NCBI GenBank assembly: GCA_002699585.1
Contig: PABP01000038.1
Coordinates: forward strand, 992,001 to 1,056,000
Reading direction: 5' to 3'
DNA: 64,000 bases
Source of the DNA: Anaerolineaceae bacterium
Lineage (GTDB): Bacteria > Chloroflexota > Anaerolineae > Aggregatilineales > Phototrophicaceae
How positions within the stretch are numbered: the first letter of the stretch is position 1; each line of letters opens with the position of its first letter. A program made the position numbers and the translations under genes. The notes under the pieces were generated by a model. That model was not told the origin of the DNA, did no database searches, and saw only the letters and a list, made by a program, of their open reading frames with translations. Shown piece by piece: positions 10,416 through 15,270 of the stretch.

Positions 10416-10457
10416 CCAGCTTAATCGTCCACACGTTTGAGCCAAACTGAGGCTGCT

Positions 10458-11237
10458 ATGCCCCACTATTATGTTGCCCATCACGGTCAACCGATCACGG
10501 CAACGCTGCTGGCCCGTCTACAAGCGGCATTCGGGCCAGGTACGGTTGCCCATACGACGATGTCGCTAGACGCGGGTGCCGATGCGCGCAAAGCGGCAGC
10601 CAAGTATGCGGCATCAGCGGAAGCGGTGCTGGTGGTGATCGGGCCGGATTGGGTCAGCCGGGTGCGCCACGCAGATGACCTGGCACGCATCGCCACGGCC
10701 TATGCATTTAAATACCAGCGGCGCGTCGTGCCCGTCATGATCGATGGCGCGATGCTGCCGGATGCCGCGCTGCTGCCGCCATCCCTGCACAAGGTGGTTT
10801 ACTTATCACCTTATGCACTGCGCGATGTTGAAAACGACATCGTGCGGCTAATCGCCATGCTCCAGCGCAGCCAGCAAGAACCGTCTTTGCCCCAACAACC
10901 GGTCTATCAACCTACCCCGGCCACCTTGCAAAAGCCGCGTACAGTGTTGGGTTGGCTGCTATGGCCGTTCCGGCTGGTGGCGTGGCTGCTGATGTCGATT
11001 GTCCGGGCCATCGTCTGGCTCGTGAAAACCATCATCCAGCAAGCCTTGAAGTCATTTATCGCCTTAATTGTGACAGTGCTGGTCTTTGGCATCGTGGGGG
11101 CCATCGTGGCCTGGTTTGTGGTGTCGCTGGTGCAGAGCAATATGGATGCTGTCCAGGCATTGGCTTCTATGGGCGATACGATACGCGAGCTACTCAATAA
11201 TTTGGCCCAAGTTCAGAATACGTTGCCGTCCTCTTAA
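10458..11237 (+). CDS. TIR-like domain protein with C-terminal transmembrane region
   Basis: The start is the ATG at 10458, preceded by GAGGCTGCT; an upstream in-frame TTG at 10437 is less likely. Residues 1-130 resemble bacterial TIR domains: an N-terminal HYYVAHHG strand in place of the usual FISYR, VLVVIGPDWVSR, then DDLARIATAYAFKYQRRVVPVMIDGAMLP and a PPSLHKVVYLSP end. The position where TIR NADases carry the catalytic glutamate (typically within RxEIxxAL) reads RIATAYAF, so the enzyme site appears lost. A Pro-rich linker leads to hydrophobic segments around residues 168-192 and 205-232 and an amphipathic tail. It is probably an adaptor or sensor at the membrane; this is inference. Confidence 0.7.
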   Translation: MPHYYVAHHGQPITATLLARLQAAFGPGTVAHTTMSLDAGADARKAAAKYAASAEAVLVVIGPDWVSRVRHADDLARIATAYAFKYQRRVVPVMIDGAMLPDAALLPPSLHKVVYLSPYALRDVENDIVRLIAMLQRSQQEPSLPQQPVYQPTPATLQKPRTVLGWLLWPFRLVAWLLMSIVRAIVWLVKTIIQQALKSFIALIVTVLVFGIVGAIVAWFVVSLVQSNMDAVQALASMGDTIRELLNNLAQVQNTLPSS

Positions 11238-11666: not shown

Positions 11667-12116
11667 CTAAGCGAGAGCCGGACTTTGATTGTAGACAAAG
11701 TCGACAGTCACTTTCAGGCGGCCCAGGGTGAGCGTATCGCCAGATTTGAGCTCGTAGCGCTGGTAAGCTTGCAGCGAATACTTGTTGAGCCAGGTACCGT
11801 TGGTGCTATCCAGGTCCTGGACCATGAGCACGCCGTAAATTTCGTTGATGGCACAATGCTGGCGAGACACACCATCTTGAGATTGGCAAAATGGCGAGAG
11901 ATCGACCAGGGTGGTGTTACTACTTGAGGAGCGACGCCCCAGGATCATGTTCTTCTTACAGGCGATATTAAAGGATATACCGGTCGCTGTGATGGTCAGC
12001 CGCAGTTCATCCGGTAGCTGCGCGAGTAAGGATTCTCTTTCTGGGAACATTTGCGGAAGGCGCGTGGTGGACTTCAGAATCTGCACCGTGACGTCGTTGC
12101 GCTGCGATTTTGCCAT
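11667..12116 (-). CDS. FHA domain-only protein (first of three)
   Basis: I place the start at the ATG at 12116, preceded by GGGGAGAAGATCAT; a longer frame upstream is unlikely. The 149 residues carry one forkhead-associated domain: MILGRRSS, then DGVSRQHCAI, then DLDSTNGTWLNKY. The Arg, Ser, His and Asn that bind phosphothreonine are all present. There is no other domain. FHA-only proteins act as phospho-dependent adaptors for Ser/Thr kinases. Two related FHA genes follow upstream on the same strand, but each has its own ribosome-binding site and sizable spacers. Confidence 0.9.
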   Translation of the reverse strand: MAKSQRNDVTVQILKSTTRLPQMFPERESLLAQLPDELRLTITATGISFNIACKKNMILGRRSSSSNTTLVDLSPFCQSQDGVSRQHCAINEIYGVLMVQDLDSTNGTWLNKYSLQAYQRYELKSGDTLTLGRLKVTVDFVYNQSPALA

Positions 12117-12255
12117 ATGATCTTCTCCCCAAAATTCAGAACACGCCCCAGATACGGGTATGCTCTTTTTACCCCTATGCTGCGGACCGATGCTGCGCAT
12201 AAACGCGCGACACGATCTGCCTTAGTCGAAGGCGGCTAAGCCTATCGTTGCCAAG

Positions 12256-12708
12256 CTATTGAATGGACGGTGCTTCATCCATGAATTCGATGGTTAGTTT
12301 CATCTGCCCCAGGGTGATGACATCCCCGGAACGCAACATATAGCTGTTGAGCTTGACACAACGCTGCCCATTAAGCAGGGTGCCATTGATGCTATCGAGA
12401 TCGCGCAGGGCGAGATAGCCATTGATAACAGCGATCATCGCGTGGTAACGCGAGACACCGTTTTGATAGCCATGATATTCGTCAAGCTGGATGGTCACGT
12501 TGGGATCACGGTCGCGAGGTTTGCGCCCCATGACAATTTCTCTGTGGGTTGATACTTCAGAAACCAGAGTGCCGTCTTCCAACCGGATACGAATGCCCGG
12601 TGGGACAGCTTGTTTATCCTGATTTTTATTGCTGGCGATGCTCAAGCGCCAGGGTTGGCGATTGAAAAGCGTCACCACTTCTCGTTGATTGTTGGAATAT
12701 GCAGACAT
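12256..12708 (-). CDS. FHA domain-only protein (second of three)
   Basis: The start is the ATG at 12708 behind AAGGGAG. The 150-residue product has the FHA core EIVMGRKPRD, NGVSRYHAMIAV and DLDSINGTLLNG. The SxxH and NG positions of phosphopeptide binding are kept. Its N-terminus (SNNQREVVTLFNRQPWRLS) is unlike those of the two neighbours, which suggests different partners. The upstream 303 bases (12709-13011) are AT-rich and contain no gene that I can see. Confidence 0.9.
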   Translation of the reverse strand: MSAYSNNQREVVTLFNRQPWRLSIASNKNQDKQAVPPGIRIRLEDGTLVSEVSTHREIVMGRKPRDRDPNVTIQLDEYHGYQNGVSRYHAMIAVINGYLALRDLDSINGTLLNGQRCVKLNSYMLRSGDVITLGQMKLTIEFMDEAPSIQ

Positions 12709-13011
12709 GCATAACTCCCTTAACGGACAATTCAACCGCGGGTGCGGCTTTATGCGACCTTATTGTAACGCTCAATGATAACGAACTAACTAGTACTCTG
12801 GCACTAATTGAAAACAAAAGAACAGTATTGTAAGGTATCTTACACTTTATTGTTTCACTATTAATTACGATATATCAAAATATGCTTCATTTTCAGAAAA
12901 GTATAGTGGATTGTGCCAGCTTTTGAGGATTTCGCTAGAGCGCATTTTGCGTATGTGTTGCGATGATGTTATCGGGCTGCGTGCTACGGTGGAGTGAGGC
13001 AGGTAGGTATT

Positions 13012-13455
13012 TTAGTGTGGGAGGCGGGGCAGCTTGGCTGTTTTGGTGGAGACGAAGAACACGCGCATGAGCATCATCCCTAGCTGGAAGATGTCCCCAT
13101 CATTCACTTCATAGACGTGCTCCGGGATGAGCTTTTCACCATTGAGGCGCGTCCCATTGCTGCTGTTCAGGTCGCGTAGCAAGAGGCGATTTTCGTCAAT
13201 CTGGAGGATGGCATGCTGCCGAGAAATGCCCTTCTCCAGGCTCTCGTAGGGGGTAAGGTCGACATCAACGCGCGCGGTAGACCCACGACGACCAATAACA
13301 AGTTCCTTCTTCAGGTTGACTTCAATGACATTGTCCGGCGTTTCGATCCAAAAACGCAGCCGTTCCGGCAAGTCCTCACGGAGCTTTTCTGTGCTGGGCC
13401 GGGGTTGGAAAGGCACCAAAGCACTTTCAATTTGGGGGTCGTCACCCATATACAT
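13012..13455 (-). CDS. FHA domain-only protein (third of three)
   Basis: The 147-residue product has ELVIGRRGST, KGISRQHAILQI and DLNSSNGTRLNGEKL, a complete phosphothreonine-binding FHA surface. An N-terminal extension with a LPERLRFWIETPDNVIEVNL strand is shared in outline with the first FHA protein (LPDELRLTITATGISFNI), so these two are closer paralogues. Start choice is between residues 1 and 3 (MYM). The 292 bases upstream (13456-13747) hold only AT-rich sequence and the divergent promoter. Confidence 0.9.
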   Translation of the reverse strand: MYMGDDPQIESALVPFQPRPSTEKLREDLPERLRFWIETPDNVIEVNLKKELVIGRRGSTARVDVDLTPYESLEKGISRQHAILQIDENRLLLRDLNSSNGTRLNGEKLIPEHVYEVNDGDIFQLGMMLMRVFFVSTKTAKLPRLPH

Positions 13456-13747: not shown

Positions 13748-14182
13748 ATGACTGTCATCGAAGCCAGACAAATTGCCGTCAACATCATTCGCCTCGCTGA
13801 ACTGGTGGCTCGCTTCCAGGCCAAATATGGACGTAACTACGTCATGTCGCTGGATTGCACTGAAGACGCATATCGACTGTATGAGGATATTCTGGAGCAG
13901 CAAGCGACTATCGCTGAGCTACTGCACCCACAAGCGTTGGACATCGCTTACAATCGCTTTGGCGAGTGGTGGACCCGTCACGATGTGATCGATAGCGCTA
14001 TCGTCAACGAAATGGCGATGGATGCTTGCAATCTGGTCAACCGGGCCGGGTATATGGAAGAAAACGGCCAGACGGAGAGCCATACGCTGCTGCCGATTGA
14101 GAAGTCGATTGCAGGTATGTTGCACCCCAGCGCACGCCAGATGGCCCGCGAGCGGGCGCTGACCTCGCTGGAAGCCAGCTAA
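13748..14182 (+). CDS. Hypothetical alpha-helical protein (144 aa)
   Basis: The product is soluble and predominantly helical, with regions such as EARQIAVNIIRLAELVARFQ and ETSLAxS-type Ala-rich ends. It has no recognisable motif. The very strong ribosome-binding site and promoter suggest good expression. It is transcribed divergently from the FHA genes and converges on the macro-domain gene, with a shared terminator at 14205. I do not recognise a family. Confidence 0.65.
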   Translation: MTVIEARQIAVNIIRLAELVARFQAKYGRNYVMSLDCTEDAYRLYEDILEQQATIAELLHPQALDIAYNRFGEWWTRHDVIDSAIVNEMAMDACNLVNRAGYMEENGQTESHTLLPIEKSIAGMLHPSARQMARERALTSLEAS

Positions 14183-14204
14183 GCTATTTAGCAATCTCAC
14201 AACA

Positions 14205-14229
14205 AAAAACGCCCTGCGTGGGCGTTTTT
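14205..14229 (+). terminator. Bidirectional intrinsic terminator
   Basis: Perfect 10-base stem AAAAACGCCC / GGGCGTTTTT with a five-base loop. A- and T-runs on both sides serve the convergent genes at 13748 (+) and 14254 (-). Confidence 0.9.
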
Positions 14230-14253
14230 GCTTTTAATGCCTGGGCAACAACC

Positions 14254-15123
14254 TTAGTCGCTTTTGGACGGATTGTTTTGCGACTTGTTCTGCTGGTTGC
14301 CCTGATTGTTGTTCTTATTGCGATTGCGCCCACCCCGGCGGCCCCGGCCTCGACGGCCTCGACGACTGCGGCGGCGAGATCCACCGTCTGATGAATTGTC
14401 GTCTGATTTACGGGGTTGATCGCCCGATTGCTGGTTACCAGAATTGCTATCTGAACTAGACGCAGCCGCTCGGTTATCGTCAGAACTTTTATTGTCATTA
14501 TCATTGCGGTTGCCAGAACGCCGCCGACCCCGGCGGCCCCGGCGACGACGTTTGCCACCGGACTGATCGTTGTTGTTGTTGCGATCATCACGGCGCTGGC
14601 GCGGCTGGTTCTTGCTGCTCTCGTCGATCTGGGTCTGGATGGCTTCTAAGTCACGTTCCGGGGATTTGTTTTTGACATAAACGTAGACATCGCCCTCATA
14701 GTTGTTGAAGGCATCTTCCAGGATTTTGCGGGCATGGCGCCAGTTGAGCGCGCCCATACCGGCCCCAATCGGTGGCATCGCTAAGCTTTCAAGGCCGCGT
14801 TCGTCGACCAAGCGCCGCAACTCAGCGATAGCCTGCTCCAGGACAGGCCGATCCGCCAGCGTCAAATAGGGATCGGTGAAGATAGCCAGGTTGTACACAA
14901 CCAGACCGGTTCGATCTTCCCAGATGAAGATGTCGCCCGGTTCATAGGTAACAGTCTCATCCAGGCAATGGGCGCGGTAGCCTTCAAACAAGCGCGGGTA
15001 GCGCGTCCGAAACTGGACGGCGATCTGAGTATTCATGAGGCCTTCGGTATTGCTCTCGATGGCATACGCGCGGACCTCGTGTTCGTTTTCCAGCAGGTCG
15101 CCTTCTATATAATGAATTGGCAC
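14254..15123 (-). CDS. Macro-domain protein with long disordered Arg/Asn/Ser-rich tail
   Basis: Start GTG at 15123 behind AAGGA. Residues 1-165 are a macro (ADP-ribose-binding) domain of the DarG/Appr-1''-p type: GDLLENEHEVRAYAIESNTEG, GLVVYNLAIFTDPYLTLADR, then MPPIGAGMGALNW, which matches the PxIGxGxGGLxW loop. The GKG lysine of active DarG is not evident (MNTQIAVQFR). Residues 175-289 are low complexity with several RRGRRG/RRGGRNR blocks separated by Asn, Asp and Ser: an RGG-like, probably RNA-binding region. No DarT toxin gene adjoins. Function may be ADP-ribose recognition or removal on nucleic acid or ribonucleoprotein; that is inference. Confidence 0.85.
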   Translation of the reverse strand: MPIHYIEGDLLENEHEVRAYAIESNTEGLMNTQIAVQFRTRYPRLFEGYRAHCLDETVTYEPGDIFIWEDRTGLVVYNLAIFTDPYLTLADRPVLEQAIAELRRLVDERGLESLAMPPIGAGMGALNWRHARKILEDAFNNYEGDVYVYVKNKSPERDLEAIQTQIDESSKNQPRQRRDDRNNNNDQSGGKRRRRGRRGRRRSGNRNDNDNKSSDDNRAAASSSDSNSGNQQSGDQPRKSDDNSSDGGSRRRSRRGRRGRGRRGGRNRNKNNNQGNQQNKSQNNPSKSD

Positions 15124-15270
15124 GCTGTATTCCTTGCGGTGATCTTATTGCTTGTGGACTTATTCCATATTACCGAATCATACACATGACTAGGTCTATT
15201 GTACACGAACATGAGCGGAGCATCTAGCGAGGTCGTGAGCAAGTCGAATTGATGTGTAACAATATCGGAC

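Follow-up and report, generated by a model that had tools for sequence, protein, structure and literature searches.

A macro domain with a rewritten catalytic pocket and an arginine-rich disordered arm in a small clade of Chloroflexota

The macro gene and its protein

In Anaerolineaceae bacterium (GenBank assembly GCA_002699585.1; Chloroflexota, family Phototrophicaceae), a gene on the reverse strand of contig PABP01000038.1 encodes a 289-residue protein that joins a macro domain to an arginine-rich disordered tail. The gene lies in a stretch of 64,000 nucleotides (positions 992,001 to 1,056,000 of the contig), the whole of which was analysed and is called the window here. A preliminary description of this DNA had proposed a macro domain with a disordered tail of 115 residues; a Pfam match and the composition of the tail confirm this architecture, the strict length of the tail being 118 residues. 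Three further genes share the altered loop motif of this protein, Asn-Thr-Gln (NTQ). They occur in a congener (G059, 66% identity) and in members of two other genera (G019, 45%; G043, 38%), and together with the gene of the window's own genome (G000) they represent three genera of one GTDB family. NTQ, GAG and DarG-like are used below as our own labels, given according to loop motif and profile and not taken from a published classification. The features of the gene and its protein are as follows.

14254..15123, reverse strand: coding sequence, 289 amino acids; GTG start, AAGGAA upstream, counterpart in the congener
14671..15123, reverse strand: macro domain, residues 1-151 (Pfam Macro; model match to DarG 5m31)
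15025..15033, reverse strand: N31-T32-Q33, replacing GKG of DarG or GAG of the nearest relatives (alignment)
14878..14880, reverse strand: F82, at the site of DarG Lys80 and SCO6735 Gln85 (alignment and published papers)
14857..14865, reverse strand: L87-T88-L89, two leucines where relatives mostly have Arg or Lys (alignment)
14740..14778, reverse strand: phosphate-binding loop MPPIGAGMGALNW, retained (glycine conservation; low model confidence at residues 122-125)
14611..14661, reverse strand: predicted linker helix, residues 155-171 (DSSP on a poor full-length model; conserved with the congener)
14257..14610, reverse strand: Arg-rich disordered tail, residues 172-289 (composition, shuffles, model)
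14518..14553, reverse strand: Arg block 1, KRRRRGRRGRRR (composition, shuffles)
14314..14376, reverse strand: Arg block 2, RRRSRRGRRGRGRRGGRNRNK, where the tail is most conserved (comparison with the congener)
14205..14229, no strand assigned: terminator-like hairpin between the macro gene and its convergent neighbour (by eye, without a terminator scan)

The AAGGAA sequence lies 7-12 bases 5' of the GTG start codon. Shine-Dalgarno-like bases are found upstream of all four clade genes, the weakest being those of G043, and all four are open frames. When the window gene is aligned with that of G059, the gaps are whole codons and 57 of 118 aligned residues are kept from position 165 onward, which indicates that the arm region is coding. 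Comparison of the two congeners by the NG86 method gave for the macro domain a dN of 0.26 and a dS of 1.63, which is near saturation, and hence a dN/dS of about 0.16; the YN00 estimate failed. For the tail, dN was 0.54 and dS was not estimable. In its own genome the window gene is the sole match to its own sequence, alongside three further Macro-family genes, and a search of that genome with the tail alone (E up to 10) returned nothing besides the window protein.

The macro domain, its pocket and the basic arm

The Pfam Macro family (PF01661) matches residues 25-134 with an E-value of 5.4e-7 (30 bits against a cut-off of 22), and the nearest solved structures by sequence are the DarG macro domains 5m31 (E 1.2e-11) and 5m3i (2.4e-11). 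A model of the domain, built from three clade sequences, reached at best a pLDDT of 77.8 and a pTM of 0.77. Compared with DarG 5m31, it gave a Z of 17.6 and an rmsd of 2.5 over 146 aligned residues; other matches were TARG1 (Z 16.3), BT1257 (15.2) and SCO6735 (14.2), the latter lower down amid many macro domains of similar Z. By its closest sequence and fold relatives the domain is a member of the Macro superfamily of the ALC1-like (DarG/TARG1) type, the grouping of those relatives coming from published papers and not from the tree made here.

DarG, the antitoxin of DarTG (5m31, 5m3e, 5m3i), is the best match in both sequence and fold, and shares with the window protein the phosphate loop and the asparagine N22 (N25 here). 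However, DarG has a GKG loop, Lys80, an adjoining DarT and a further region, where the window protein has a basic tail instead. Identity with the DarG antitoxin was rejected: the window protein scores 81.2 bits with the NCBIfam DarG equivalog (NF048014), under the 250-bit cut-off, the PADLOC DarG match covers only 2-153 of 329 with the rest of DarG unmatched, and both Lys80 and an adjoining DarT are missing. Human TARG1 (C6orf130; 4j5q, 4j5s) is an ALC1-like hydrolase of the same class and fold that binds RNA and ribosomes (PMC5928194), but it has a catalytic Lys84 with an acidic partner and is described as a minimal domain (PMC7050489). The Streptomyces hydrolase SCO6735 (5e3b) belongs to the same class and also lacks the lysine, G043 sharing its glutamine; it differs in being an active eraser with a basic pocket (Lys34 and Lys89), and no arm is described in the available portion of its report (PMC9411070). 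The nearest relatives in the tree are six stand-alone macro domains of Chloroflexota (L006, L038, L039, L041, L068 and L069), which differ from the NTQ clade in their GAG loop, their glutamine at the catalytic site and their want of a basic arm.

The alignment comprised 67 distinct macro proteins (4 NTQ, 6 GAG, 52 DarG-like and 5 degenerate) with E under 1e-5 among the loci fetched. The preliminary description had found no evident GKG motif, and indeed the residues aligned with it are N31-T32-Q33; NTQ occupies this loop in all four clade members and in none of the 6 GAG or 52 DarG-like rows. The description had also taken GKG for the catalytic motif of DarG, but GKG is not the main one. The main catalytic residue is Lys80, situated in NFPTK, and K80A inactivates the enzyme, the lysine of GKG being K29 (PMC5179494). 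Three further DarG variants, N22A, K29E and G119E, show impairment (PMC5179494). At the Lys80 site, 51 of 52 DarG-like rows have Lys and 6 of 6 GAG rows have Gln; SCO6735 also has Gln there, and Q85A inactivates it (PMC9411070). In the clade, the same position holds Phe in G000, Tyr in G059 and G019, and Gln in G043, so that the Lys or Gln of ALC1-like hydrolases is missing from three of the four. This change is a stronger argument for altered catalysis than the missing GKG. Positions 87 and 89 are Leu in every clade member, while Arg or Lys is found at 87 in 57 of 58 relatives and at 89 in 39 of 58.

Other parts of the pocket persist. N25, equivalent to N22 of DarG, is present in 4/4 clade members, position 9 is Asp or Glu, and the phosphate loop keeps G122 and G124 throughout the clade and has Gly or Ala (the latter in two members) at position 120. 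From the alignment, the adenine/phosphate cradle looks largely kept and the side acting on the distal ribose looks replaced. Seven clade-invariant residues (E27, N31, T32, Q33, L87, L89 and K151) occur in none of the GAG rows and in at most one of the 52 DarG-like rows each. Since N31, T32, Q33 and the other changes are fixed across the whole clade, the NTQ loop does not represent scattered decay.

The 118-residue tail contains 28 R, 22 N, 18 S, 15 G, 13 D, 10 Q and 6 K, no F, W, Y or H, and has a net charge of +21. By charge and hydropathy, residues 165-289 class as disordered. In a full-length AlphaFold2 model the tail has no secondary structure, with 10-residue pLDDT means of 40-56, which is weak evidence given a run that was poor overall (mean 50.8). 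Among 2000 shuffles of residues 165-289, the single RGG was reached in 626, the six RG in 161, the 12 RR in 10 and the two RRGRRG in none. The arm of the congener gave a weaker signal (RRGRRG once, reached in 10 shuffles; RR 9 times, reached in 83). Of the 'RGG-like' character given to the tail earlier, the richness in arginine thus stands, with RRGRRG beyond chance, while the lone RGG is at chance level and an RGG box was rejected. The composition is compatible with an RNA-binding disordered region. An arm without aromatic residues is a poor candidate for self-driven phase separation, although co-condensation with RNA is possible.

A search for homologues of the same architecture, as had been suggested, found a C-terminal tail in the congener and an N-terminal counterpart in the two other genera. 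The arms of G000 and G059 comprise 125 and 126 residues from position 165, with net charges of +20 and +15. Those of G019 and G043 comprise 32 and 68 residues, with +10 and +16, and both proteins end shortly past the domain. Both N-terminal arms lead into a junction EPSP-[LV]-x-LVTG, and because this junction is shared, they are suggested to be translated and of common origin. The tail, then, is not absent from all orthologues, and a DNA-level repeat or low-complexity expansion in one strain was rejected: the only tandem repeat in 14200-15200 is 20 bp long, the congener has its tail, and arms are present in all four genomes.

For the alignment as a whole, a basic arm was defined as 30 residues outside the domain with Arg plus Lys of at least 30%, hydrophobic residues of at most 15% and a net charge of at least +7. 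Only 5 of the 67 distinct macro proteins have such a segment, namely the four NTQ members and L067 (thus 1 of 63 outside the clade), in agreement with the rarity first ascribed to the architecture. L067, from genome G178, lies at a contig edge; its macro domain is of the GKG type and is followed C-terminally by a short tail rich in Lys and Arg, possibly an independent case of the same architecture. The codon pattern for RRGRRG occurs at two places in the 6.7-Mb own genome and at one in G059, all inside the macro gene; the reversed control gave two in each of these genomes, so that the location is informative and the count is not. G019 has none. G043 has 16 (control 1), of which one is the macro gene, the longest open frame among them (230 aa), the rest being in frames of 38-186 aa, mostly short.

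The arms coincide with a split of charge. The domain core carries a net charge of -12, -7, -6 and 0 in the four clade members (mean -6.2), compared with a mean of +1.8 (0 to 4) in the 6 GAG domains and +2.6 (-4 to 13) in the 52 DarG-like ones. DarG has a positive surface patch that is presumed to bind single-stranded DNA (PMC7050489). The arm may have taken over the role of that patch.

Distribution and genomic context

In the GTDB family, 36 of 98 genomes contain some match to the macro domain. An alignment-based scan of 84,980 species (one genome per species), which requires two short conserved patterns and may omit the own genome, returned two loci, in Chloroflexi bacterium isolate J038 (identity as G019) and Anaerolineaceae bacterium GEM2.Bin39 (identity as G043). 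No fifth NTQ member was present among the loci read from 154 order, 396 class and 400 phylum genomes; the class and phylum genomes were sampled evenly and searched at E up to 1e-18, so that more members may exist. A single-protein scan of genome contigs (13 stretches) and a scan of viral contigs (75 stretches) gave no relatives. Matches were obtained in 72 plasmid and 42 phage records, all under 60% identity and at 27.7-35.1% among the 20 matches listed. A second, more degenerate macro-like group (L024, L027, L028, L029 and L030) was seen in one genus of the family; it has lost both the loop and the glycines of the phosphate loop ('AQTLAFGFNA').

A tree of 34 rows was made from all 4 NTQ and all 6 GAG domains together with the first 24 DarG-like ones out of 52, omitting 28 DarG-like and 5 degenerate rows; long branches were flagged for L005, L014 and L041. 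The four NTQ members form one clade with branch support of 100/99, and this clade together with the six GAG domains is separated from the 24 DarG-like domains at 100/100. The order within the clade, with G043 branching first and then G019, has a support of only 94/83. From this branching, the N-terminal arm may be ancestral and may have been swapped for a C-terminal one in the window's genus.

The neighbours of the macro gene in the window are the following.

10437-11237, forward strand: TIR-like gene (TIR_2 19.2 bits, cut-off 28), then hydrophobic stretches; congener counterpart at 42%
11667-12200, 12256-12735 and 13012-13455, reverse strand: three FHA-domain proteins in a row (Pfam FHA; conserved with the congener)
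13748-14182, forward strand: 144-aa protein, convergent with the macro gene; 68% identity in the congener

Thirteen genes of the window, including the macro gene, are collinear with those of the congener at 42-76% identity and in inverted orientation. They include the TIR-like gene, the three FHA genes, the 144-aa gene, a methyltransferase and a 120-aa gene. The last, upstream of the TIR-like gene, presumably resembles the ribosome-silencing factor RsfS. The 144-aa neighbour has no Pfam or NCBIfam family over the cut-off. Because thirteen genes are collinear with the congener, the locus looks vertically inherited in the genus, and a mobile or defence island was rejected on account of these counterparts. 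The neighbourhood is not shared beyond the genus. In G043 the macro gene is followed, at a distance of 86 bp, by what by eye is a recA gene with an intein-like insertion (L033:5555-7102), and other genes are found in G019. A functional link to this recA was rejected, as recA is not beside the other three clade genes.

The own genome has one DarT match, on contig C4, the window being on C7. The DarT matches of G000, G043 and G019 are TIR-DarT fusions of 469-484 aa, with Pfam TIR_2 and DarT both over cut-off, and that of G059 is such a fusion by coordinates, TIR_2 and DarT falling in one 471-aa frame. The loci identified with Pfam are listed here.

L130:4758-7298: TIR-DarT locus (own genome, contig C4)
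L132:5345-6799: TIR-DarT locus
L133:4879-6291: TIR-DarT locus

In the own genome, TIR-DarT begins 12 bp after a DarG-like macro protein with a tail of PPTESK repeats. Frames resembling DarT, about 460-530 aa long, are present in many genomes of the family.

A candidate reader of ADP-ribose and its alternatives

The best reading of these features, though a tentative one, is that an ALC1-like eraser was rebuilt to read or sense a ligand resembling ADP-ribose, with a flexible polybasic arm tethering it to RNA or DNA. The folded domain would have lost a non-specific grip on nucleic acid, which the basic arm would supply instead; the pocket would then recognise a modified end or base or a nearby protein and leave the mark in place. 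Each element of this is predicted from sequence: that the pocket binds ADP-ribose or a related nucleotide, that no hydrolysis takes place, and that the arm binds RNA or DNA. The role of a reader, which the preliminary description had suggested, is plausible in view of the persistence of N25 and the Gly-rich phosphate loop alongside the loss of the catalytic side. In a more specific and more doubtful form, the protein would be a nucleic-acid-tethered ADP-ribose reader in which positive charge has moved to the arm and the NTQ pocket serves as a non-hydrolysing receptor for a mark on RNA, DNA or ribosomes. In macroH2A, an ADP-ribose-reading macro domain is likewise combined with a Lys-rich flexible linker; this is an analogy only, macroH2A being a eukaryotic histone fusion of another macro class, and no common origin of the arms is implied.

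Several observations weigh against such a reader. The domain model is moderate, the five models having pLDDT values of 77.8, 71.3, 50.7, 48.3 and 41.0, with residues 122-125 under 50. SCO6735 is active without the lysine and G043 keeps a Gln at that site, so that loss of activity is unproven, and the changes to NTQ, L87 and L89 could also abolish the binding of ADP-ribose. Comparison of the neighbourhoods of the clade members showed no conserved partner gene beyond the genus. The clade is also small, with four members in three genera.

Alternatively, the protein may still be a hydrolase of further diverged mechanism, which the arm would bring to ADP-ribosylated DNA or RNA, for example as a stand-alone antidote to the TIR-DarT-like transferase encoded elsewhere in these genomes. 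With Gln85 instead of Lys, SCO6735 removes ADP-ribose from thymidine by hydrolysis (PMC9411070), and G043 keeps this Gln; moreover, each of the four genomes has one DarT-family match, whose contig carries no Macro match in G019 and G043. We consider this rather unlikely, given Phe or Tyr at the catalytic site in three of four members and the loss of the GxG loop in all four. The TIR-DarT of G000 already has its own DarG-like neighbour, and DarT matches are frequent across the family (in 30 of 98 genomes and 18 of 24 genera), so that their presence in 3 of 3 clade genera is not unusual; the probability of finding DarT in 4/4 clade genomes against 30/98 would be 0.0076 if genomes were independent, which they are not. 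A specific link of the macro gene to DarT was therefore rejected. A pocket dead for nucleotides, with the domain acting as a protein-protein or dimerisation scaffold for an RNA/DNA-binding basic arm, is unlikely as well. Three consecutive loop residues and two basic positions are altered in 4/4, G120 is replaced by Ala in 2/4, and RNA binding by TARG1 does not depend on its ADP-ribose pocket (PMC5928194), all of which would suit a scaffold, but N25, G122 and G124 are invariant in the clade, which a dead pocket does not require.

The neighbouring TIR-like gene raises the question of whether the protein senses a soluble derivative of ADP-ribose that TIR proteins produce, much as the macro part of TM-macro ThsA does in Thoeris. 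That gene lies about 3 kb away and has a counterpart near the congener's gene, a TIR match lies about 2 kb from the G019 gene, and the four clade genomes have 31, 32, 21 and 12 TIR_2 matches (E up to 0.001). With 12-32 TIR matches per genome, however, such proximity is not rare, and G043 has none on that contig. The window protein matches DarG only and no ThsA in PADLOC (E up to 0.01), and a positive arm is not part of Thoeris, which makes a sensor of this kind improbable. The GAG relative L006 has a weak PADLOC match to ThsA (E 0.002). Least probable of all, and hardly to be expected, is that the protein has no function today and is what is left of a DarG-like protein in decay, its low-complexity tail drifting. 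The small size of the clade, its long branches and the fast divergence of the tail (57/118 residues kept, dN 0.54) would fit decay, but the domain has a dN/dS of about 0.16 (with dS near saturation), the frames are open and preceded by Shine-Dalgarno-like bases, the locus is collinear in the genus, and the seven clade-specific invariant positions and the arm are found in every member.

The reader held by a basic arm would be a departure from what is described for this class. ALC1-like macro domains are described as minimal, without terminal extensions (PMC7050489), and the bacterial ALC1-like members in the papers cited here are erasers. Human TARG1 associates with ribosomes and RNA and enters nucleoli without a need for ADP-ribose binding (PMC5928194). 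Loss of macro-domain activity has been reported in proteins of host immunity and of viruses (PMC10221186). A literature search by titles and abstract openings did not find this architecture in bacteria, which is not proof that it is unpublished.

If the pocket were dead, interest would shrink to a curious basic-arm protein. If the proposed reader is real, ADP-ribose signalling in Chloroflexota would include dedicated readers, beyond toxins and erasers, and the clade would be a natural experiment in the conversion of an eraser into a reader. Being compact, its protein would also lend itself to studying whether ADP-ribosylated RNA or ribosomes are read in bacteria.
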